Source: an uncultured Oscillospiraceae bacterium
Lineage (GTDB): Bacteria; Bacillota; Clostridia; Oscillospirales; Oscillospiraceae
Direction of reading: 5' to 3'
Assembly: GCA_947625285.1 (NCBI GenBank)
Contig: CANQNS010000009.1
Location: 1-64,000, forward strand
Length of the DNA: 64,000 bases
The position numbers and the translations under genes were made by a program. The notes beneath the pieces are model-generated. The model was given only the letters and a program-made list of their open reading frames with translations, was not told the DNA's origin and searched no databases. This document shows positions 22,582 through 60,145 of this stretch, in pieces. Numbering within the stretch: position 1 is the first letter of the stretch; the number at the start of each line of letters is the position of its first letter.

Positions 22582-23268
22582 ATGCTGTCTGCGGGTCTCA
22601 TGCTTTTGATCTCCAGCGCGCTGCTGATGCTCCGGCTGGGGGACAACGCCTCGTCCTTTCCCCGGCCGCTGAAGCCGAAGGAGGAACAGGAGTACATACA
22701 GAGGTCCCTTGCGGGGGATATGGAGGCCAGAAACAAGCTCATCGAACACAATCTGCGTCTGGTGATGCACATCATCAAGAAGTACTATACCGCCAGCGGG
22801 GACACGGAGGACCTGGTCTCCATCGGCACCATCGGGCTCATCAAGGGCGTGTCCACCTACCGGCCGGACAAGGGGGTGCGCCTGGCTACCTATGCGTCCA
22901 AGTGCATCGAAAACGAGATACTCATGCACTTCCGGGGCCAGAAAAAGTCGGCGGGCGACGTGTCGCTGTCGGACGCGCTGGACACAGACGGCGAAGGGGA
23001 GGGCTTGGCCCTGCTGGACACCATCGCCTGCGACCAGGATATGCTGGAGGACCTGTCCCGGCTGGAGTCGGTGGAGCGCGTCCGCCGTGCGGTGGACACG
23101 GTGCTGGAGGGCAGGGAGGCGCAGGTGATCCGCCTGCGCTACGGTCTGGACGGCAGACCGCCCATGCCTCAGCGCGAGGTGGCCTCCATCATCGGCATCT
23201 CCCGGTCCTATGTATCCCGCATCGAGAAAAAGGCGCTGGAGCGGCTCAGAAACAGCCTGGAAGAGTAA
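22582..23268 (+). CDS. sigK: Late mother-cell sporulation sigma factor SigK, uninterrupted
   Basis: 228-residue sigma-70 factor. A short hydrophobic pro-sequence (SAGLMLLISSALLMLRL) precedes region 2, as in pro-SigK, suggesting membrane-linked proteolytic activation. Region 2 (EHNLRLVMHIIKKYY, DLVSIGTIGLIKGVSTY, RLATYASKCIENEILMHFR) and region 4.2 (QREVASIIGISRSYVSRIEKKALERL) are complete. The gene is not split by a skin element, unlike B. subtilis and C. difficile. Mother-cell control by DNA rearrangement in this genome, if any, must therefore act elsewhere (compare cotJC). Confidence 0.93.
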   Translation: MLSAGLMLLISSALLMLRLGDNASSFPRPLKPKEEQEYIQRSLAGDMEARNKLIEHNLRLVMHIIKKYYTASGDTEDLVSIGTIGLIKGVSTYRPDKGVRLATYASKCIENEILMHFRGQKKSAGDVSLSDALDTDGEGEGLALLDTIACDQDMLEDLSRLESVERVRRAVDTVLEGREAQVIRLRYGLDGRPPMPQREVASIIGISRSYVSRIEKKALERLRNSLEE

Positions 23269-35870: not shown

Positions 35871-35899
35871 TTACCAAACATGCCTTGGAGGGATTCTTT

Positions 35900-37372
35900 G
35901 TGGACAGTATCTATGAGGATATCGCCCGCAGAACGGACGGCGACATCTACCTGGGGGTCGTCGGACCGGTCCGGACGGGAAAATCGACCTTTATCAAGCG
36001 TTTCATGGAGACGCAGATCATCCCCAACATCGAAAACGTGTATAAAAAAGAGCGCGCCCGCGACGAGCTGCCACAGTCCGGCTCCGGCCGCACCGTCATG
36101 ACCGCCGAGCCCAAATTCGTGCCGGAGGAAGCGGCGGAGATCGCCCTGGGCACGGAGGCCTCCGCCTCTGTGCGGCTCATCGACTGCGTGGGCTATATGG
36201 TGCCGGGGGCCGAGGGCATCTATGAGGACGGGTCGGAGCGCATGGTGACCACGCCCTGGTACGACCACGAGATCCCCATGACCCAGGCGGCGGAGGAGGG
36301 GACCCGGAAGGTGATCAGCGAACACTCCACCATCGGCCTTGTGATCACCACTGACGGCAGCTTTGGGGAGATACCCAGGGAAAACTATCTGGCGGCGGAG
36401 GAGAGGGTCATCCGGGAGCTGCAGGACATCGGCAAGCCCTTCGCCGTGGTAGTCAACAGCGCGGAGCCCGCCGGGGCCGCCGCGTCCGCTCTGGCGGCGC
36501 AGCTTTCGGAGCAGTACCGGGTGCCGTGCCTGCCCGTCAACTGCCAGGAGCTGTCGGCGGAGGACGTGAACGCGGTGATGAAGGCGGTGCTGTTTCAGTT
36601 CCCCCTCCACGAGCTGAGCGTCTGGCTGCCGGCCTGGGCGGAGGCTCTGCCGGAGGACAGCGAGCTGAAAAAGACCATGTATTCCATGCTGCTGGACATG
36701 GGCGAGGATATGTCCGCCCTGCAGGACGCCTACGCCGGCGTGGAGGGGCTCACGCACAGCGAGCTCATAAGCTCCGCCCGCATCACCGCCGCCCAGGCCG
36801 GCAGCGGCACGGCCAGCGCGGTCATCGAGCTGGAGCAGTCGCTGTACTACAGGACCATCAGCGACCAGTCCGGCTTTGAGATACGCGACGACGGGGACCT
36901 GATGGAGCTGCTGCGGTCCTTGAAGAGCGTCAAGACGGAGTATGACCACGTACATGAGGCCTTGGCCCAGGCGCGGGAGACCGGCTACGGCATCATCATG
37001 CCCGGCCCGGAGGAGATGGAGCTGCAAGAGCCCCAGATCGTCAGCCGGGGCGGACGCTACAGCGTGCGTCTCAAGGCCAGCGCGCCGGCCATACACCTGT
37101 TCCGCACCCAGGTGGAGACAGAGGTCTCCCCGGCGGTGGGAGGGGAGAAGGCCTCGGAGCAGATCGTCAGCTTTCTCCTGCAGGGCTTCGACGGGGACAT
37201 CAACCGCATCTGGGAGTCCAACATCTTCGGCAAATCCCTCAACGACATCGCTGAGGAGGGGATCACCAACAAGCTGCAGCAGATGCCGCCCAACATCCGA
37301 AACCGGCTGCGCGTCACGGTCCAGCGGCTCGTCAACGACGGCGGCAGCCGCCTCATATGCTTCATTCTTTAA
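35900..37372 (+). CDS. spoIVA: Stage IV sporulation protein A (spore coat morphogenetic ATPase)
   Basis: 490-residue protein that polymerises on the forespore surface as the coat basement layer. The N-terminal GTPase-like domain has Walker A GVVGPVRTGKSTFIKRF and RLIDCVGYMVPGA, with TTDGSFGEIPRENY. The C terminus ends in SRLICFIL, as needed for SpoVM-dependent localisation in B. subtilis. GTG 35900 follows TTGGAGG; the TTG in that sequence is not the start. It is preceded by a candidate SigE promoter and followed by a terminator overlapping the next promoter. Confidence 0.97.
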   Translation: MDSIYEDIARRTDGDIYLGVVGPVRTGKSTFIKRFMETQIIPNIENVYKKERARDELPQSGSGRTVMTAEPKFVPEEAAEIALGTEASASVRLIDCVGYMVPGAEGIYEDGSERMVTTPWYDHEIPMTQAAEEGTRKVISEHSTIGLVITTDGSFGEIPRENYLAAEERVIRELQDIGKPFAVVVNSAEPAGAAASALAAQLSEQYRVPCLPVNCQELSAEDVNAVMKAVLFQFPLHELSVWLPAWAEALPEDSELKKTMYSMLLDMGEDMSALQDAYAGVEGLTHSELISSARITAAQAGSGTASAVIELEQSLYYRTISDQSGFEIRDDGDLMELLRSLKSVKTEYDHVHEALAQARETGYGIIMPGPEEMELQEPQIVSRGGRYSVRLKASAPAIHLFRTQVETEVSPAVGGEKASEQIVSFLLQGFDGDINRIWESNIFGKSLNDIAEEGITNKLQQMPPNIRNRLRVTVQRLVNDGGSRLICFIL

Positions 37373-40656: not shown

Positions 40657-41187
40657 CTAAGTTGACCGGCGGCGGTGCCGCATCGGTTTCTCCTCCAAGA
40701 GCCGGTCGGCCATGGCATAGATCATGGTAATCGTCCAATCAGAGTGGTTCAAAGCGCGCCGCACTCTCTCGATGTCGCCATACTTCCTCATGAGCTCCAC
40801 GGCATAGACTTTTCTAAGGCTGTGGACCCCGACGTTTTGAGGAATCCGGAAGGCCCGCGCCGCCCTCTTGACGTCTTTCCAGACCGCCTGCCGGGTGCGG
40901 TGTTTTGTCGGGTCCCACGGGCTGGGGAAAGCCCACTGAGCCGAAGCTTGAGCAAGGATGGCCTCCCTCTCCCATGCCGGGAAGCCGATTTGTTTTCGCT
41001 TCCCCGTCTTGCTCTCCGTGACCCACACGTGGTCCTTGATTTGGTCCGGCCGGAGCTCCAGCACGTCCGAAACCCGAAGCCCCGTCCGTAAACAGACCCG
41101 GCAAACCAGCTCATTCGACCACATAAGGGCCGAAAAGACCCGGTCCACCTGCTCTTGGATGAGATACTGCGTTTTGATTTTGAGCAC
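40657..41187 (-). CDS. Short tyrosine recombinase/integrase (catalytic domain only)
   Basis: 176-residue protein with the complete catalytic set of tyrosine recombinases: Arg in RTGLRVSDVLELR, Lys in SKTGKRKQIGF, HSLRK, the histidine of LNHSDWT and the nucleophile Tyr in TMIYAMAD. The N-terminal SAM-like core-binding domain is missing, so DNA recognition may depend on a partner or the host Xer protein. The start is GTG 41187; no better start exists. It is downstream of Rep on the same strand. Confidence 0.8.
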   Translation of the reverse strand: MLKIKTQYLIQEQVDRVFSALMWSNELVCRVCLRTGLRVSDVLELRPDQIKDHVWVTESKTGKRKQIGFPAWEREAILAQASAQWAFPSPWDPTKHRTRQAVWKDVKRAARAFRIPQNVGVHSLRKVYAVELMRKYGDIERVRRALNHSDWTITMIYAMADRLLEEKPMRHRRRST

Positions 41188-41210
41188 CCTCTTTCTGCAC
41201 TTTTTGGGTC

Positions 41211-41235
41211 GGACCGCCCATGTCGCGGGCGGTCC
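41211..41235. other. Hairpin between island genes
   Basis: GGACCGCCC (41211-41219) and GGGCGGTCC (41227-41235) form a perfect 9-bp stem between the 119-residue gene and the recombinase gene. Possibly an intraoperonic processing site or weak terminator. Confidence 0.45.
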
Positions 41236-41283
41236 GGCTCCGTTTTTACTTTCCGAAAACTGTCAACTGGGTCTGCTGCGGCC

Positions 41284-41643
41284 TCACACGTCAACAATGA
41301 TTGTCACGGGCTCGCCGCCGGAAGTGCCTCCCTCAATTCCAATGAGCTTTTCGCCCACCCAAGCCGCCGCCGTCGCGCTCTTGGCGGCTGCTGCCAGCGC
41401 GTCTTGGTGGAATTTCACTCGGCCCACAGCCCGCGCTTGGTTGTAGACGGACACCAAGGACCGTTTGAAGCGGCTTTGGGCTTGCAGCTCAAGGTCCATG
41501 AACTGCGGCTCCACGTCAGGCCATGCCGCCGCTGCCATGGCGTCGTCAATGGCCGCCTGAGCGCGGGCCGCCTCGAAGAAGCGAGCCCACTGGTCGTCGC
41601 CCCACTCATGGGCCACCACCAGCGGCTTTCGTTTTTCTGCCAT
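41284..41643 (-). CDS. Hypothetical island protein
   Basis: 119-residue soluble, Ala-rich protein (QWARFFEAARAQAAIDDAMAA; HQDALAAAAKSATAAAWVGE). No family recognised. ATG 41643 has GGGGAGA three bases upstream, so the longer open frame through Rep is not used. It starts 26 bp after the Rep stop and probably shares its transcript. Its role in replication or transfer is unknown. Confidence 0.65.
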   Translation of the reverse strand: MAEKRKPLVVAHEWGDDQWARFFEAARAQAAIDDAMAAAAWPDVEPQFMDLELQAQSRFKRSLVSVYNQARAVGRVKFHQDALAAAAKSATAAAWVGEKLIGIEGGTSGGEPVTIIVDV

Positions 41644-41669
41644 GCTCTCCCCTTCTTTCCCGTTTTCGG

Positions 41670-42608
41670 TTAATTCCTGTTTTTTGCTGTCCCGTTCACG
41701 GGACAGCCGGAAGCGTCGGTGCGATAGATCACCAGTCGGCAGCCCATGGAGGGGACGGTCCCCTCCCATGCGCCGGGCACGGCGGCAGCCGTTTCGATGT
41801 CCCCCTCTCCAAAAACGGCCGTTGGTCGCTGGAGCTCGCCGCCGGAATAATACCACCTGCCGCCGATTTTGCCCGTTGTGGCGGCCTCCTTGGTGATGTA
41901 CTTGGTGATGTAAGCGGCAGCCGCGTCGACTTCGCCATAAGGCCGAATAGCGGTGGTGAAGCCCAAGGACCATGCGGGCAGGTTGTAAACGATTTGCCAG
42001 CCGTCGCGCAGCATTCGCTCGCGCTCTGCCGCGCTCTTGGGCCGTCGGGGTCTTGACCCGGCGCGGGTCAGGGTGCCCGAATCCACGGCTCTGATGTCGC
42101 CGCGAAAGAAGCCGTGGAAATGGACCGCGCCGTCCTTGTGGAGCTCCGGGACAAGGACATAAGCGAGCCCGTGGCGGCGCACTTGGTTGTCTGCCCACTG
42201 GCTCATTTTGCGGGTGATGGTCCCCATGTCGTGGCGGTCAATGCGGCTGGGGTCAAGAGTAAGGGTGACGAAATAATCCCACTGGTTCGACCTCACGAAA
42301 TCCCGCAAGGCGGCCTTGGCCCGCCGCATGGACCGCGCACGGTTTTCCGCTGCCCTTGTGTCCGGCAGTTCCAAGCTCTTGCCCTCATGTTCAAGCCGGG
42401 TCATTTCGAGTTCCGGGTCCGCGAGCTCTGCAAAGACCCGCCGAAGCTCCATGAGGGAACCGTGGCTCAGTTCCTCACGATCCGAAGCGCGAGAGAAGCC
42501 AGCGCGCCGAAAAATCGGCCTGTCAGCCACCATAACAAGAGTTGACCCATCAGGATAAACAAGCGTTCTCGCATTTGCGTAGACCTCATTTTTTGTGGCG
42601 AAGATCAT
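41670..42608 (-). CDS. HUH rolling-circle replication initiator (ORF2/G2P-like)
   Basis: 312-residue Rep. Motif I is YFVTLTLDPSRI, the metal-binding HUH is HFHGFF, and the tyrosine motif is AAAYITKYITKEA, with two tyrosines three residues apart as in phage-type Rep proteins. The region before motif I (RAKAALRDFVRSNQWD) is typical of the replication initiators of small Firmicutes elements and filamentous-phage-like proviruses. ATG 42608 gives a conserved-looking start TKNEVYANARTLVYPDG; the ribosome-binding site is weak. No coat, zot-like or relaxase gene is present, so this is a replicon rather than a complete filamentous phage. Confidence 0.82.
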   Translation of the reverse strand: MIFATKNEVYANARTLVYPDGSTLVMVADRPIFRRAGFSRASDREELSHGSLMELRRVFAELADPELEMTRLEHEGKSLELPDTRAAENRARSMRRAKAALRDFVRSNQWDYFVTLTLDPSRIDRHDMGTITRKMSQWADNQVRRHGLAYVLVPELHKDGAVHFHGFFRGDIRAVDSGTLTRAGSRPRRPKSAAERERMLRDGWQIVYNLPAWSLGFTTAIRPYGEVDAAAAYITKYITKEAATTGKIGGRWYYSGGELQRPTAVFGEGDIETAAAVPGAWEGTVPSMGCRLVIYRTDASGCPVNGTAKNRN

Positions 42609-54792: not shown

Positions 54793-55239
54793 TTGCAAAA
54801 CAACGATTCCTGCACTTATAAAGAGGGCCCTCTGCCCTCCTGCGCACCGCTGGCCGTGCCCATGGTGGCCGCCCAGATGTGCGCGGAACCGGCCTATGAA
54901 AGCGGCGAGGCTCTTGCCAAGGGCACGCTGTTCCCCGGGCTGGATCTGCCCTTTATGGACTATGTGGCAAACGGCCCGGTGGAGAAAACGCCGGAGACCG
55001 AGCTGATGGCGATCGACTTCGTGTGCCAGGAGCTGGCGCTTTATTTGGATACACATCCCGGCGACCAAGAGGCCTTCAAGACCTGGAAGAGCGTCAACGC
55101 CCTGGCAAAAGAGGCCCGGAAGCGGTATGTGGAGATGTGCGGCCCGGTGATGCGCACCGATACGGCCAAATTCGACTCCTGGGTGTGGCCCGAGGACCCC
55201 TGGCCCTGGAACGCGGGCGGAAAGGCTGGTAAGAAATAA
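54793..55239 (+). CDS. CotJA-CotJB fusion spore coat protein
   Basis: 148-residue protein joining two spore-coat families that are separate genes in Bacillus. Residues ~18-58 (APLAVPMVAAQMCAEPAYES, GTLFPGLDLPF) correspond to CotJA. Residues ~70-140 (MAIDFVCQELALYLDTHPGD, FDSWVWPEDPWPWN) correspond to CotJB, including its Trp-rich end. The likely start is TTG 54793 with AAGGGGG upstream. The last base of its stop overlaps the cotJC ATG. CotJA/B are needed to place the CotJC Mn-catalase-like protein in the coat. Confidence 0.82.
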   Translation: MQNNDSCTYKEGPLPSCAPLAVPMVAAQMCAEPAYESGEALAKGTLFPGLDLPFMDYVANGPVEKTPETELMAIDFVCQELALYLDTHPGDQEAFKTWKSVNALAKEARKRYVEMCGPVMRTDTAKFDSWVWPEDPWPWNAGGKAGKK

Positions 55240-55754
55240 TGTTCGTATATGAGAAGAAGCTGCAGTACCCTGTCCGCATCAAGAACCCCAACCCCGCCAT
55301 GGCGAAATACATCATCACCCAGTACGGCGGCCCCGACGGCGAGCTTGGCGCGTCGCTGCGGTATCTGAGCCAGCGGTATTCCATGCCCTACCCCGAGGTA
55401 AAGGCCATCCTGACCGACATAGGCGTGGAGGAGCTGGGGCACCTGGAGATGATCGGCACGATCGTCCACCAGCTGACGCGGAACATGACCGTGGAGCAGG
55501 TGGAGAAGGCCGGCTTCCAGGACTACTTTGTGGACCACACCGCCGGCGTCTACGCCCAGGCGGCCGCCGGCTGGCCCTATGACGCCGCCAGCTTCGCCGT
55601 CAAAGGCGACGTGATCGCGGATCTTTCCGAGGACATGGGCGCGGATGCTGCGACGCGGAAAGGACAACGTGAGGAAATACGATGGGACAAGCTGACCTTT
55701 CTCTTATACCTCAAAATGGCAATTCTTCATGCTGAATCTCCGGGTGGTCCTTAA
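55239..55754 (+). CDS. cotJC: CotJC (Mn-catalase-like coat protein), 5' part, interrupted by an element
   Basis: The first 137 codons (55239-55649) are normal CotJC: FVYEKKLQYPVRIKNPNPAMA, LTDIGVEELGHLEMIGTI with Mn-ligand-type Glu/His, and GDVIADLSEDMGADA. From codon 138 the frame reads element DNA, giving an unrelated tail and a stop at 55754. The missing C-terminal part lies at 59942-60145. Joining the parts at the shared GC (55650-55651 and 59942-59943) yields a 204-residue protein in frame, with the family sequence ADAAPEQKARVTYDN across the joint. So the coat gene is functional only if the element is excised. Confidence 0.9.
   Translation: MFVYEKKLQYPVRIKNPNPAMAKYIITQYGGPDGELGASLRYLSQRYSMPYPEVKAILTDIGVEELGHLEMIGTIVHQLTRNMTVEQVEKAGFQDYFVDHTAGVYAQAAAGWPYDAASFAVKGDVIADLSEDMGADAATRKGQREEIRWDKLTFLLYLKMAILHAESPGGP
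55650..55668. other. Left attachment site (attL) core and inner arm
   Basis: Crossover GC (55650-55651), then inner arm GACGCGGAAAGGACAAC (55652-55668). Its reverse complement matches the right inner arm at 12 of 17 positions, so in the excised circle the two arms form a dyad around GC, as in serine-integrase attP sites. Confidence 0.75.
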
Positions 55755-56838
55755 GTTCGGTTTCAAACACTTTCCACCATGGGTGATCATCATCATAAAC
55801 GATCTGATTTTTTAGTTTTTCAATTATCGCTTGATTGCCACTTTTCAATCCAGATATAAAATAGTTCTTAAGTGACCATGAAATACCGTTCCGATTAATA
55901 GAACAAATATTATCCCAATAGCACTTATCAATATATGATGCAGAAAACTCATCATTAGATGTCAACTTACAAATTGCCGTATTTGTCCAGCGGGATATTT
56001 TATTAAATGCTAAAAGCATATTAGTATCTATCCATGTAGCCAATGCACCATATTCACCACATTTATTATTTTCTGAATAATATGTTCCATTAGAAAAATC
56101 TTTATATATAATTTCTTCTGTTCTAAGGCGCACTGAAGCATCTATATACTTCCAAAATTCACCCTTACAACAAGCGATGAGGTAACGTAAATCGAAAAAA
56201 TCTGTTGCAACCCTTAATTCGTCACTTATTACTTTATATACCCTGGAAATCTCTGCTTCGTCAAGAGCATTATATAAGGAATTAAGAAAAGATTTTGCTA
56301 CATAGACATCACATTCATCTCTTTTTAAAACCACTTCAATAGCAATATTTGCTCTCTGTCGTTTTGGTATTTCCTGAACGAGCAGGTCTGAATATTGCTT
56401 ATTTTTAACATAGTACTGATCTGTAATACGCTTGAAAAACTCTTCCTTATTAAAGCTTAATTGAGAATTATCAACTAATCCAAGAAGGAAGTTTATAAAA
56501 CCAATAATTGAATCAGCAGATGATTCTTCATCCTTTATGGCGTCATGACTTCTAGGATTACGGATTCCAGTATAGATTCCCTTTAATATCTCCTGTACGC
56601 CCTTCTGTTCATCCCTTTCCGAATCAGTTTGCAACTTGTTTAGCTTTATTCTAGGATTCTCTCCGCCAAACGCTTGCCCTACCAGACTGGCACCATCACC
56701 TTCAAGGCCAGACTTGTTGCGTATAGTATCTGTTAAGAAAAGAATGGAGTCAAGAATAGCCCCGGAATAGTTGCCTGCCTCATAATTTGCTCTTACGGCA
56801 TTCCATAATTCTGAATTAATCTCATGTTGAAATACCAT
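55711..56838 (-). CDS. HEPN-like Ymh/TIGR02391-type protein
   Basis: 375-residue AT-rich gene. Residues ~8-130 match the Ymh/TIGR02391 domain: ELWNAVRANYEAGNYSGAIL, RNKSGLEGDGASLVGQAFGG, and the HEPN-type R-x4-H in RNPRSH (Arg93, His98). The remaining ~240 residues are not recognised. HEPN domains with this motif are often RNases of abortive-infection or restriction-linked systems, so a defence role is plausible. GAGGTGT precedes ATG 56838. Its 3' end overlaps the aberrant tail of the cotJC 5' frame in antisense. Confidence 0.75.
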   Translation of the reverse strand: MVFQHEINSELWNAVRANYEAGNYSGAILDSILFLTDTIRNKSGLEGDGASLVGQAFGGENPRIKLNKLQTDSERDEQKGVQEILKGIYTGIRNPRSHDAIKDEESSADSIIGFINFLLGLVDNSQLSFNKEEFFKRITDQYYVKNKQYSDLLVQEIPKRQRANIAIEVVLKRDECDVYVAKSFLNSLYNALDEAEISRVYKVISDELRVATDFFDLRYLIACCKGEFWKYIDASVRLRTEEIIYKDFSNGTYYSENNKCGEYGALATWIDTNMLLAFNKISRWTNTAICKLTSNDEFSASYIDKCYWDNICSINRNGISWSLKNYFISGLKSGNQAIIEKLKNQIVYDDDHPWWKVFETELKDHPEIQHEELPF

Positions 56839-56935
56839 AATGACACCTCAACTAATAATGTATATAGCAAGTATGTCATTTGTGCTACCAAATGACCTTG
56901 TTGGGTGGAGTCCCAAAGCCCCTGGTGATGGAGCA

Positions 56936-57085
56936 GTTATCCCCTGTCCTAAATTATATTCCGGCGTGCGGTCTCTGTCAAGGCTTGGCATCAATGTCAC
57001 AATCGCTAAACGAGCCGGTCAGCCTTCGGCTGGCCGGGCCTTGACCAAGGTCGTACGCCGGAAGTTTGATCATTAAGGGGATAAC
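56936..57085. repeat. 150-nt nested inverted repeat, possible structured RNA
   Basis: Outer stem GTTATCCCC (56936-56944)/GGGGATAAC (57077-57085). Next CCGGCGT (56961-56967)/ACGCCGG (57055-57061). Next GTCAAGGC (56977-56984)/GCCTTGAC (57038-57045). Inner hairpin CCGGTCAGCC (57015-57024)/GGCTGGCCGG (57028-57037) with one G-T pair. All four stems nest around one centre, so the whole segment can fold as a long hairpin or cruciform. It is GC-rich inside otherwise AT-rich DNA. No known RNA family recognised. Confidence 0.65.
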
Positions 57086-57090
57086 AGCAC

Positions 57091-57114
57091 ACAAGCCCGC
57101 TGACGCGGGCTTGT
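57091..57114. terminator. Hairpin downstream of the MBL gene
   Basis: ACAAGCCCGC (57091-57100), TGAC, GCGGGCTTGT (57105-57114): a perfect 10-bp stem, 16 bp beyond the stop of the minus-strand MBL gene. No T-tract follows on the minus strand, so it may be a weak terminator. Confidence 0.5.
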
Positions 57115-57130
57115 CCAATATATAATGGGT

Positions 57131-57895
57131 TCAGATGTGGATTTGGAAATCACCAAGATCAAATATTCCGCTTCCCTGTTCTAACTTACCGGTAGCCGCC
57201 AATTCGCTGAATCCCTTTTCTATTCTATCGATCAGGTCTACAGGGATATTCAGATGATGATGGCCAGGCATGATTCTTTCTATATCGAGTTTTTGGATCT
57301 TCTTCACAGACTGCCAGAATTTCTGTGGGTCGGTGGACGGATAGAACACATCGAGACAGCCCTGATAAATCAAGTCCCCGGAATACAGATACTTTCTTTC
57401 CGGCTCATAGAAACAGCAGTGACCGGGAGAGTGCCCGGGCGTATGAATGACTGATAACTGCCTGTTACCTAAATCCAGATGATCCCCATCGTGTAAAATT
57501 CTTTGCGGCGCACCCCGAAAAATCTCGTAGTCGTCAATAGAAAAGCCGCTTGGAAAAATACAAGTCTCACGCATCAGATTGCACTTGACCTCTGACAATG
57601 GTATCGGAAACTTGACAGAAAGCCAATCCTTCTCAGCGTTATGTACCGCAATGCTGTCAAAGTACTTATGTCCGCCAATATGGTCCCAATGGACGTGGGT
57701 GGTAACTACCGTGACAGGGAGCGTGGCAAGGCTGTCCACCACTTCCCGAATGTTGGCGACGCCTAAGCCTGTATCGATCAGAATCGCTTTGTCTGTTCCA
57801 CAGAGAAGATAGCAATGTGTTTCTTCCCAATGCTTATATTCACTGATCGCATAAGTATCTGCGTCGATTTGTTCAATTGTAAACCAATCACTCAT
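57131..57895 (-). CDS. MBL-fold metallo-hydrolase
   Basis: 254-residue metallo-beta-lactamase-fold enzyme. Metal motifs are TTHVHWDHIGG (HxHxDH), HTPGHSPGHCC and YSGDLIYQG, with a final PGHHHLN. It resembles the glyoxalase-II-like branch; the substrate is unknown. GGAAGAATGATCT precedes ATG 57895. GC content is intermediate between the HEPN-like gene and the host. It is cargo of the cotJC element with no obvious link to recombination. Confidence 0.87.
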   Translation of the reverse strand: MSDWFTIEQIDADTYAISEYKHWEETHCYLLCGTDKAILIDTGLGVANIREVVDSLATLPVTVVTTHVHWDHIGGHKYFDSIAVHNAEKDWLSVKFPIPLSEVKCNLMRETCIFPSGFSIDDYEIFRGAPQRILHDGDHLDLGNRQLSVIHTPGHSPGHCCFYEPERKYLYSGDLIYQGCLDVFYPSTDPQKFWQSVKKIQKLDIERIMPGHHHLNIPVDLIDRIEKGFSELAATGKLEQGSGIFDLGDFQIHI

Positions 57896-58297
57896 AGATC
57901 ATTCTTCCAGCCCTCCAGAAATGCGTGACCATTATACCACACAGGGGTCTATTCATCAATCCATCTATCATCCCCCGAAATGCGTCTCACCGTGAGATTT
58001 AATTTGTCAAAGCCTGTATCATTCAGGAAAGTTTTGGCTTCTATTGGGGATTTCCTGTTATATTGCACTTCCGTTGTCGTAATAGACGTCAGAGGCAGTC
58101 TCATAAGCTGTACTACCAGACACGGAAAGGAGCAATGCTTATTTGACAGAAAACCGGAACCACGCACCGAACTGCAAGAGCGTTTTCAAAAGCGGCGGAA
58201 ACGCGATATGCAGAGACGCTTTCACTGCAAAATGGATAGAGCTTATCACTCGGCGAGAGAGAGAAAGACGGATAAGCGCGGAAAGCTGCCCGAAAAA
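57896..58297. other. Element intergenic region without a recognised gene
   Basis: About 400 bp between the divergent MBL and recombinase genes. Short frames exist on both strands, for example a minus frame ending in FDKLNLTVRRISGDD, but none has a convincing ribosome-binding site or family match. A recombination directionality factor could be hidden here but cannot be supported. Confidence 0.35.
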
Positions 58298-58326
58298 ATG
58301 ACAAGCTGCGTTTCCTATGATACAAT
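58298..58326 (+). promoter_or_regulatory. Promoter of the serine recombinase gene
   Basis: ATGACA (58298-58303), 17 bp, TACAAT (58321-58326): a good SigA-type pair. The -10 also reads GATACAAT (58319-58326), one base from the SigE -10 CATACAAT, but no SigE -35 lies at 13-15 bp. Confidence 0.6.
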
Positions 58327-58370
58327 ATTCGTAGGGAGACAGCTTGTTCTATCTCTTAGGAGAAAGGAAT

Positions 58371-59924
58371 ATGAAGGTAGCTATTTATTGCCGCTTATCC
58401 GAAGAAGATAGAAACAAACAATTTGCGACCGATGACAGCAACAGCATCCAAAACCAAAAGGCCATGCTGCTGCAATACGTCATGGAACAGGGGTGGGAGC
58501 TTTACAACATCTACAGCGACGACGACTACACCGGAGCAGACCGACGGCGGCCGGAGTTCAACCGGCTCCTGCGAGACGCGGAGCAGCGGAAATTTGACAT
58601 TGTTCTCTGTAAGACCCAATCCCGCTTTACCCGCGAGCTGGAGCTGGTGGAAAAGTACATACACGGTCTCTTTCCCCTCTGGGGTATCCGCTTCATCAGC
58701 ATCGTGGACAACGCCGACACCGCTAACAAGGGCAACAAAAAATCCCGTCAGATAAACGGGCTGGTGAACGAGTGGTATCTGGAGGATATGTCTGAGAATA
58801 TCCGCAGTGTGCTGACGAGCCGCCGGGAAAATGGGTTTCACATCGGCGCCTTTGCCCTCTACGGCTACAAGAAAGACCCCGACCAGAAAGGCCACCTTAT
58901 TATCGACGAGGAAGCTGCCGCCGTTGTCCGGGAGGTGTTCACCCTCTACGCCCAAGGCTACGGCAAGACCGCCATCGCCCGGATACTCAACGACCGGGGC
59001 ATACCGAACCCCACGGAGTACAAGCGTCTACACGGCCTGCGCTATATGCAACCCGCCACGAAGAACAGTACCCTCTGGAAATACTTCGCTATCGCGGATA
59101 TGCTGGAAAACGAGATGTATATCGGAAACATGGTACAGGGCAAGTACGGCAGCGTGTCCTATAAGACGAAACAGTGCCGCCCGCGCCCCAAAGACCAGTG
59201 GTATGTGGTGGAGGGCACCCATGAGCCCATCATCGACCGGCCGCTGTGGGAGGCGGTGAAGGCCCTGCGGGAGCAGCGGGCCAAGCCCTTTGACTCCGGC
59301 AAAATAGGGCCCTTTGCCCGAAAAGCACGGTGCGCCGGCTGCGGCTGCGTCATGCGCTCGTCCAAGAGCCGGGGCCGCCGCTATCTGCAATGCTGTACCC
59401 GGCATGTGTCAAAAGACGCCTGCGAGGGCGCGTTCATCGCCGTTGACAAGCTGGAACAGATGGTGCTGACGGAGTTGAACCGCTTAACGGCGGAGTATCT
59501 GGACAGGGATGAAATGGCCCGGCAGATCAAGTTTTGTACAGATCTGCAAGAGCAGAGATCACACCTACAGTCCGAGGTAACAGCATATCAAAAGCGGATC
59601 GCAGAGTACACCAAGGGAATCCGGGACCTGTACTTGGATAAGGTCAAGGGGCTGCTGTCCGAGGGCGATTATCTGGACATTTCACGGGATTTCACCGAGG
59701 AACGCAATCGGCTGGAATTGGCGGCAGCCGACACGGAAATGCAGATCGAAGCCATTGACACCAGGATCGCTGCAGGCGACAACCGCCGGGAAATGATCGA
59801 GCAGTATACCAACCTGGAGCACCTTGACCGGGAGACCGTGGAGGTGCTGATCGACTACATCATCGTGGGCAAGCGCATCCCTGGCACACGGGATGTGCCC
59901 ATCGAGATACACTGGAACTTTTAA
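58371..59924 (+). CDS. Large serine recombinase of the cotJC element
   Basis: 517-residue large serine integrase. The resolvase domain has the nucleophile Ser10 in AIYCRLSEEDRN, then SDDDYTGADRRRPEF and CKTQSRFTRELELVEKYI. The recombinase domain follows (GYGKTAIARILNDRGIPNP), then a zinc ribbon CAGCGCVMRSS...CC and a coiled coil (EEQRSHLQSEVTAYQ-like, residues ~395-470). Size and order fit SpoIVCA-type enzymes and transposon/phage integrases alike. ATG 58371 follows AGGAGAAAGG. The stop at 59922-59924 is directly followed by the attR inner arm, the usual int-attP arrangement. Confidence 0.93.
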   Translation: MKVAIYCRLSEEDRNKQFATDDSNSIQNQKAMLLQYVMEQGWELYNIYSDDDYTGADRRRPEFNRLLRDAEQRKFDIVLCKTQSRFTRELELVEKYIHGLFPLWGIRFISIVDNADTANKGNKKSRQINGLVNEWYLEDMSENIRSVLTSRRENGFHIGAFALYGYKKDPDQKGHLIIDEEAAAVVREVFTLYAQGYGKTAIARILNDRGIPNPTEYKRLHGLRYMQPATKNSTLWKYFAIADMLENEMYIGNMVQGKYGSVSYKTKQCRPRPKDQWYVVEGTHEPIIDRPLWEAVKALREQRAKPFDSGKIGPFARKARCAGCGCVMRSSKSRGRRYLQCCTRHVSKDACEGAFIAVDKLEQMVLTELNRLTAEYLDRDEMARQIKFCTDLQEQRSHLQSEVTAYQKRIAEYTKGIRDLYLDKVKGLLSEGDYLDISRDFTEERNRLELAAADTEMQIEAIDTRIAAGDNRREMIEQYTNLEHLDRETVEVLIDYIIVGKRIPGTRDVPIEIHWNF

Positions 59925-59943
59925 GTTGTCTTTATCCAGTCGC
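59925..59943. other. Right attachment site (attR) inner arm and core
   Basis: Inner arm GTTGTCTTTATCCAGTC (59925-59941) then crossover GC (59942-59943). The arm starts one base after the recombinase stop codon and is an imperfect inverted copy of the left arm. Confidence 0.75.
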
Positions 59944-60145
59944 ACCAGAGCAGAAGGCCCGGGTGACCTATGACAACATCCTTCGCATGGCGGACGACCC
60001 GGACGTGATCGACGCCATCCGCTTCCTGCGGGAGCGGGAGGTGGTCCACTTCCAGCGGTTCGGTGAGGCCATGGGCATCGCCACCTCCCGGATGGACCAG
60101 CGCAACGTGTACGCCGTCAACCCCGCATTCGACAGAAAAAAGTAA
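59942..60145 (+). pseudogene. cotJC: CotJC 3' part, separated from its 5' part
   Basis: 68 codons continuing CotJC from the GCA codon at 59942: APEQKARVTYDNILRMADD, then the four-helix-bundle end FLREREVVHFQRFGEAMGI and VYAVNPAFDRKK. No start signal precedes it; a GTG at 59963 is in frame but lacks a ribosome-binding site. The Glu/His pair in REREVVHFQRF is expected among the manganese ligands, so the 5' part alone would be inactive. Not decayed: no stop or frameshift has accumulated, which argues for continued selection on the joined gene. Confidence 0.9.

Follow-up and report, generated by a model that had tools for sequence, protein, structure and literature searches.

A handful of genes are known from which intervening elements are excised in a programmed manner at sporulation; in the papers cited (on excerpts of which we draw, here and below), most of these are in Bacillus and in pathogenic Clostridia. 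The interrupted genes that those excerpts name are sigK, spsM, spoVFB, gerE, yabG and spoVR (PMC10747680, PMC5595907, PMC5025042); cotJ is not among the genes named in the first two excerpts, and in that of PMC5025042 it occurs only in a reference title. Here we describe a stretch of 64,000 nucleotides from an uncultured Oscillospiraceae bacterium (contig CANQNS010000009.1, positions 1 to 64,000; the window) in which the spore coat gene cotJC is divided by a 4304-bp element encoding a large serine recombinase (LSR). We consider it probable, judging from the sequence and its relatives, that this insert is a developmentally excised intervening element whose removal restores CotJC in sporulation. 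A skin-like element in cotJC had been proposed in the first-pass annotation of the window, and it is the best-supported reading, given purifying selection on the gene, a sole cotJC, an LSR with a conserved small open reading frame (ORF), and a skin-like layout.

Like skinCd in sigK of Clostridioides difficile, the window's is an LSR element in a mother-cell sporulation gene, with the same layout of LSR promoter, inverted repeats and small ORF. In skinCd the LSR is expressed from a sigmaA promoter with inverted repeats and the directionality factor from a sigmaE promoter (PMC5025042), the latter protein being 53 amino acids (aa) long (PMC10747680). Unlike skinCd, the window element interrupts the gene of a coat enzyme rather than sigK, is small and has no recognised phage gene, while cotJC elements as a group carry varied cargo and several can cut one gene. 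Excision of the B. subtilis skin by its LSR, SpoIVCA, likewise rebuilds a sporulation gene (sigK) in the mother cell, as we propose for cotJC, but there spoIVCA is itself under sigmaE control, and the element is prophage-like and confined to one site (PMC5025042). An LSR paired with a mother-cell directionality factor is also found in SPbeta, which interrupts spsM (SprA/SprB; PMC5025042, PMC4191935), and gin, in gerE of Bacillus cereus, is a non-phage element excised at sporulation by the LSR GirC with a further factor, GirX (PMC5595907). Elements in sporulation genes further include vfbin (spoVFB), the spoVR elements and yin (yabG, Clostridium botulinum), which differ in being phage-like, yin being reported as unique to one strain (PMC10747680, PMC5025042). 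SPbeta, for its part, differs as an active prophage in a polysaccharide gene, and gin in its 28.6 kb, its three LSRs, its target, a regulator gene, and its host. Outside the endospore formers, the heterocyst elements of cyanobacteria (nifD, fdxN/XisF) are removed by programmed excision in a terminal cell, with several elements per locus, but concern nitrogen fixation in another host; against the XisF model the window LSR scores 82.8 bits, far under the cut-off of 375. No report of a split cotJC was found in the literature searched, which leaves most subscription journals outside its coverage. The first-pass annotation likewise named sigK, spsM, spoVFB and gerE, but not cotJC, as genes with developmental elements. 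In the nearest paper, as far as the excerpt available goes, a cotJC-like gene lies next to the attachment site of a prophage and is not reported as split (PMC11222575).

The genome that contains the window is an assembly of 2.06 Mb, 97% complete. A profile search of it with PF05067 returned two hits only, at 55239-55658 (profile positions 1-154, E 7.6e-36) and 59939-60094 (positions 147-198, E 4.4e-10), and no second cotJC. Both pieces are free of internal stops, which bears out the description of the halves as undamaged. The gene lies directly downstream of a single ORF bearing both CotJA and CotJB domains, CotJA/CotJB followed by cotJC being the usual operon order. The features of the locus are as follows.

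54793..55239, + strand: ORF with CotJA and CotJB domains (Pfam PF11007, PF12652), start codon uncertain
55239..55645, + strand: cotJC 5' piece, GA core included (PF05067 profile 1-154; joint from join search and congeners)
55644..55645: GA, likely crossover dinucleotide, left junction (sole top-scoring join in the window; congener sequence)
55646..59949: intervening element, 4304 bp with one GA core counted (join search; gene contiguous in five congeners)
55646..55668: left element end, TGCTGCGACGCGGAAAGGACAAC, half of an attP-like palindrome (17 of 23 positions pair with 59925-59947, by eye)
55711..56838, - strand: Hypoth_Ymh / TIGR02391 family gene, cargo (PF09509, E 2.4e-31), with no counterpart in the sister element of locus L063
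57131..57895, - strand: MBL-fold hydrolase, cargo (PF00753, E 9.1e-30; NCBIfam matches shown fall below their cut-offs), also in L063 (dN/dS 0.15)
58080..58109, + strand: sigmaE-like promoter before the small ORF (TAATAGA, 15-nt spacer, CATAAGCT), a weak copy; the same position is high-scoring in many relatives
58143..58301, + strand: conserved small ORF, 52 aa, TTG start, candidate recombination directionality factor (conservation)
58298..58326, + strand: sigmaA-like LSR promoter (ATGACA, 17 nt, TACAAT, extended -10; by eye, similar in many relatives)
58300..58348: inverted repeat around the LSR promoter, arms 58300-58308 and 58340-58348 (by eye)
58371..59924, + strand: LSR, 517 aa, with Resolvase, Recombinase, zinc ribbon and DUF4368 domains (domain search)
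59925..59947: right element end, GTTGTCTTTATCCAGTCGCACCA, second half of the attP-like palindrome (sequence, by eye)
59948..60145, + strand: cotJC 3' piece, GA core to stop (PF05067 profile 147-198; join search and congeners)

To place the joint we scored joins at shared dinucleotides, a search that picks in-frame solutions. The window has one best join, at the GA present at 55644-55645 and again at 59948-59949, and precise removal of the element there yields, by computation, a single open reading frame of 200 aa. Uninterrupted cotJC, sought in related genomes, is contiguous in five congeners (L178-L182; L numbers denote loci, G numbers genomes), which read DMGAEQKAR(A/V)TYDN, and the GA join restores precisely this form, DMGA|EQKAR. 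GA also falls within the shared overlap of all 13 joins at the window's site (site C below). Since the congener sequence matches and the best join of the window lies there, GA is most likely the crossover. Because the search favours in-frame solutions, it is the agreement with congeners and the selection on the gene that carry the argument, rather than the frame alone. The division of cotJC into two parts thus stands as first annotated while the joint moves by four codons: the GC joint given before (ADAAPEQKAR, 204 aa) is in frame, but it carries four codons more than the five congeners and is ruled out by their sequences together with the join search, so that the 4.29 kb first given as the distance between the pieces becomes an element of 4304 bp. 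An assembly artefact or a chance event is ruled out too, the identical cut being present in dozens of other assemblies, named isolates included.

The strongest evidence for developmental excision comes from selection. We compared joined cotJC genes in nine pairs of species in which both partners carry the split gene, and the 3' pieces alone in seven, estimating nonsynonymous (dN) and synonymous (dS) divergence. In eight of the nine pairs dN/dS falls between 0.011 and 0.079, the ninth (L137/L096) being saturated. For the window and L063, dN is 0.014, dS 0.50 and dN/dS 0.029; the corresponding values are 0.005, 0.44 and 0.011 for L149/L150; 0.009, 0.82 and 0.011 for L159/L161; 0.014, 0.66 and 0.022 for L147/L148; 0.105, 2.6 and 0.04 for L147/L154; 0.104, 1.31 and 0.079 for L148/L154; 0.021, 1.32 and 0.016 for L145/L151; and 0.045, 1.52 and 0.03 for L143/L144. 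The severed 3' piece behaves in the same way: none of 282 nonsynonymous sites changed in L149/L150 as against 26 of 84 synonymous ones, none of 147 against 15 of 39 in L159/L161, and 4 of 144 against 12 of 42 between the window and L063, with dN/dS by piece no higher than 0.084 in all seven pairs tested. Eight control pairs with contiguous genes span 0.009-0.085. Split cotJC, its severed 3' piece included, is therefore under strong purifying selection between species that both carry it in pieces.

How long have the elements been in place? In L149/L150 the full 4.8 kb of element aligns at 84.9% (5' flank 89.9%), in L159/L161 9.0 kb aligns at 89.8% (flank 84.9%), and the elements of the window and L063 are 91% identical over 3.09 kb. 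Synonymous divergence of LSR and cargo is 0.35-0.41 against 0.49-0.54 for host genes in window/L063, 0.65-0.86 against 0.62-0.66 in L147/L148, and 0.52-0.95 against 0.45-0.77 in L149/L150; in L148/L154 a cargo gene stands at 1.33 against 1.31, the LSR being saturated, and in L159/L161 the LSR value of 0.77 is close to the 0.82 of cotJC. In several pairs the element thus looks as old as the species split, and the simplest reading would be that a number of split states passed through speciation at a time when the intact protein was still required, although later insertions of equally diverged elements could conceivably have produced the same picture.

The interruption of cotJC extends well beyond the window. 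PF05067 has a match in 237 of 300 family genomes searched, of which 82, besides the window's genome, have none better than about E 1e-47. We re-examined 80 of these 82 genomes without a full-length match (all but G139 and G286; the window's genome is not among the 80). A genome was scored as split only if its pieces end at the sites, and piece counts are minimum figures. On this basis at least 57 have cotJC sequence on either side of a cut at one of three places. The sites lie near residue 30 (A), near residue 62 (B) and near residue 135 (C, that of the window). Four of the 80 have only weak and apparently unrelated matches. At least five genomes have cotJC in three pieces, cut at A and B (G209, G029, G150), A and C (G143) or B and C (G111), and the pieces contain no stop, apart from G209, whose last match extends across two stops. 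On contig C1 of G143 the three pieces lie at 71980-72309 (-), 112357-112455 (-) and 129685-129852 (+), the third on the opposite strand, perhaps through inversion between elements or misassembly. A further site, D, lies at the RFGEA motif near residue 176; of eight genomes whose stretches were examined, two, G053 (L183) and G284 (L186), have the last exon downstream, and it was not found in those of G198, G091, G017, G058, G039 and G189. In 30 fetched loci all 31 joins are in frame and stop-free, as the search selects for, and 20 of the 30 rebuilt genes encode 197-208 aa. The C-terminus is altered in six (L085, L149, L150, L152, L158, L162); in two of these, L149 and L162, the end that is missing is found further downstream, pointing to a fourth cut. 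The rebuilt gene of L155 is also cut at C, and those of L086, L107 and L122 lack a start, the piece beginning at site B or at a contig edge. Twelve LSRs compared are 43-76% identical within a site and 23-32% between sites, whereas the site-B LSR of L156 shares 21-24% with other site-B LSRs, so that site B is used by more than one family.

The targeting of the window's LSR family can be read from its relatives, of which we analysed, in named genomes, the best 80 of 339 encoding stretches (75-95% identity). In 75 of the 80, cotJC is cut at the window's site in the same stretch, and in 70 the 3' end of the LSR lies within 400 bp of the cotJC fragment; in L096, L122, L131, L133 and L137 the fragment lies elsewhere in the stretch. 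Most members of the TndX/TnpX-type LSR clade possess DUF4368 (PMC10083194), and the window LSR has this domain but not loose targeting, as the 75 occupants of a single site attest. A domain search confirmed the LSR first reported in the insert, on the strand of cotJC; orientation as in skin holds for the window but is not a shared feature, because 53 of the 70 adjacent LSRs adjoin the 3' piece and 17 the 5' piece. Within the bacterial family, 36 of 400 genomes have an LSR relative at E 1e-120. Of 21 fetched family loci with at least 57% identity (the window's included), 15 directly adjoin a cotJC piece, three (L049-L051) have one further off, and three (L038, L043, L044) have none in the short stretch fetched, site-C pieces lying a few kb away in the genomes of L043 and L044 (G155, G039). 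Cuts at the window's site also occur in genomes named for several other genera. Carriers that are named strains include Anaerotignum lactatifermentans DSM 14214 (L072), Flintibacter muris DSM 110149 (L125), Roseburia faecis M72 (L115) and Diplocloster modestus ASD4241 (L124). With the expected domains, the 517-aa protein is presumably the site-specific recombinase of the element. The ends of the window element form a near-palindrome centred on GA (by eye). For the family, combining the consensus of right ends with one type of left end by eye gives approximately GTTGTTCTTATATGATTGCAGCA-GA-TGGTGCAATCATATAAGAACAAC, which suggests that GA is flanked by an attP-like palindrome.

Nine fetched family loci with 41-45% LSR identity (L054-L062) are not at cotJC. 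This next clade sits in a gene for a PRK06851-like P-loop ATPase, which we take to be a spore gene; the fragments match NF005320 far under its cut-off. In L054-L058, L060 and L062 the LSR is followed by a 3' ATPase piece containing HVVEPKYP or a similar sequence, and L059 shows the 5' side of the gene, on the other strand. In the 480 nt upstream of the LSR, six of the nine have a sigmaE-like score of at least 12 (the highest, 21.6, in L061; L054, L055 and L060 fall under 12), scores for which there is no shuffle threshold at that length, and a small ORF is seen by eye upstream of the LSR in several.

Upstream of the LSR, a conserved ORF of 42-61 aa is present in 58 of 70 site-C loci scanned (window included), with the motif CKSVFKSG...FTKKWIELIN.LEK. 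The window's copy has no Pfam match, and for the small-ORF families Pfam, PHROGs and PDB gave at best weak, non-significant matches. By position and conservation the 52-aa ORF is a candidate recombination directionality factor. Many site-C LSR upstream regions show, by eye, a sigmaA-like promoter within an inverted repeat (not L064, L105, L111, L116 and L120, among others), and an exact 8-bp inverted repeat occurs in 31 of 71 such regions against 93 of 1420 shuffles. cotJ of B. subtilis is reportedly under sigmaE control, going by the title of a 1995 paper. A sigmaE consensus is matched with three or fewer mismatches upstream of 21 of 58 small ORFs, compared with 2 of 71 LSRs, 2 of 58 regions on the reverse strand and 28 of 1740 shuffles. 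With a matrix derived from the 17 usable sites among 22 spoIVA upstream regions, 28 of 58 small ORFs have an upstream score at or above the 99th percentile of shuffles, as do none of 71 LSR upstream regions and none of 58 reverse strands. Most site-B elements have a small ORF upstream of the LSR too.

We therefore suggest a cycle in which the LSR would insert the element at its fixed site in cotJC and, expressed from a vegetative-type promoter, keep it integrated in growing cells. At sporulation a mother-cell sigma factor, probably sigmaE, would turn on the small ORF upstream of the LSR, and its product, acting as directionality factor, would lead the LSR to recombine the two GA cores. The element would exit as a circle and restore the full frame of CotJC (200 aa) in the mother cell, where the whole protein would be needed; mother-cell DNA not being inherited, the spore would retain the element.

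Could the insert instead be an ordinary site-specific mobile element, with cotJC merely its landing site, excised at random in any cell and the gene kept clean by fast insertion turnover in mostly element-free lineages? We think this unlikely, although LSR relatives do occupy one site across many genera, beside either piece, and the LSR promoter looks vegetative. Congeners are element-free (eight have no LSR at E 1e-120, so the element is recent or mobile in this genus); cargo differs between sister elements, the window's having the whole extra Ymh gene relative to L063; and the L143/L144 element is younger than the species split, being about 92% identical over 5 kb where the 5' flank is 78%, so that at least one party gained it afterwards. 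These last three observations weigh against developmental excision, as do several others: five of the 80 LSR relatives (L066, L073, L093, L113, L116) have no cotJC piece in the stretch examined; the spermidine synthase carried by L159/L161 has a dS of 0.37 against 0.82 for cotJC; an ORF beyond the 3' piece of L149/L150, perhaps in a site-D element, has a dS of 0.12; and most element dS values in L145/L151 are saturated. The promoter evidence is weakened in its turn: the training sites of the matrix were chosen with the sigmaE consensus; the 58 small-ORF regions are related, and 13 of 35 reach the 99th percentile after thinning; the window's own site, at 8.5, stays below the 11.3 that marks the 95th percentile of shuffles; upstream of the window's cotJA and sigK the matrix gives low scores of 8.3 and 4.2, and at spoIVA no usable site, so that it tells little in this genome; and no clear sigmaE-like site is found at site-B small ORFs (p near 0.02 for L143, near 0.00 for L148 at a modest score of 8.1, at least 0.07 for the rest). 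Against random excision from a mere landing site, however, whole elements are colinear in L149/L150 and L159/L161 and element dS approximates host dS in L149/L150, L147/L148 and window/L063, which suggests that their presence dates back to the species split; purifying selection equals that on contiguous genes; and a sigmaE-like promoter stands at the small ORF in about half of the relatives.

That cotJC is dead in its carriers, a dispensable coat gene whose halves are young pseudogenes, would fit the apparent redundancy of CotJC-type proteins in C. difficile (PMC11222575), itself a further point against a need for excision, and the altered C-termini in six of 30 loci. It is nevertheless very improbable: dN/dS is 0.01-0.08 in eight split-split pairs and 3' pieces are constrained in the seven tested, 20 of 30 rebuilt genes have the usual 197-208 aa, and the missing ends of L149 and L162 reflect the fourth cut. 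Still harder to credit is the idea that the two parts are separate genes, each with its own protein; both reading frames are open, and a GTG codon could serve as the start of the short 3' ORF, but the cut residue differs between species while constant per site, and the parts form one contiguous gene in congeners. An intact second cotJC, decay of the split gene and an independent 3' gene, three of the findings that the first-pass annotation had named as speaking against its proposal, were all looked for and not found. Developmental excision remains the reading we prefer.

Some elements carry metabolic genes. Cargo includes a pyrimidine-nucleoside phosphorylase (L148), matches to Orn/Lys/Arg decarboxylase, AdoMet decarboxylase and spermidine synthase (L159) and to the arginase family (L161), these metabolic cargoes lying in elements common to more than one species, and restriction-modification-type genes (L157). 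Polyamine-type biosynthesis genes thus occur within the cotJC element of L159 and L161, two species of one genus, and beside the site-A LSR of L158 an ORF resembles, by eye, pyrroline-5-carboxylate reductase. Among the three large element ORFs scanned in the window (Ymh, MBL-fold, LSR) there are neither phage structural or lysis genes nor relaxase or transfer genes. Nine loci come from viral contigs, and in five of these the cotJC piece is cut at a second place too (L233, L234 and L237 at 62/63-136; L236 and L238 at 132/133-178). A 23.9-kb circular record labelled Subdoligranulum variabile plasmid (OY725852.1, L242) was considered as an excised circle and ruled out: the cotJC 3' piece follows its LSR, so that it looks like misassigned chromosomal DNA.

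Elsewhere in the window, sigK is intact, as first stated, if the SigK-family ORF is judged by NF004471 (it falls under the cut-off of TIGR02846), and spoIVA is likewise whole:

22582..23268, + strand: SigK-family sporulation sigma factor, uninterrupted (NF004471, 265.8 bits, over the cut-off of 252; TIGR02846, 269.8, under 298.65)
35885..37372, + strand: spoIVA, uninterrupted (PF09547, E 1.5e-114)

A phage-integrase-family ORF (PF00589) and one for a G2P-like replication protein (PF23343) stand side by side at 40657-42608 and may represent a small integrated replicon.

Taking all loci together, we think it likely, if less so than excision in the window itself, that cotJC exists in fragments throughout the gut Clostridia, that distinct LSR families cut it at four fixed sites, with two elements interrupting a single copy in some cases, and that its pieces are under selection wherever tested. 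The mother cell would then remove up to two elements, and some of these may be long-term homes of host metabolism genes, passed on through the spore lineage but lost from the terminal cell. Were the L159/L161 element to be lost in vegetative cells, its polyamine-type genes would be lost with it. Fixed-site LSR families with linked small ORFs are possible pairs of integrase and directionality factor for genetic tools, and such split genes may be scored as missing or broken by gene finders and in surveys of sporulation in metagenome assemblies. Among gut commensals, cultured and uncultured alike, the split state appears to be common for this one coat gene: at least 57 of the 237 matching genomes of the family sample show it. 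Recombinase, cargo and target residue vary among the many carriers, which thereby act as natural replicates in which comparison, and work on culturable isolates, can test why sporulation genes attract such elements.

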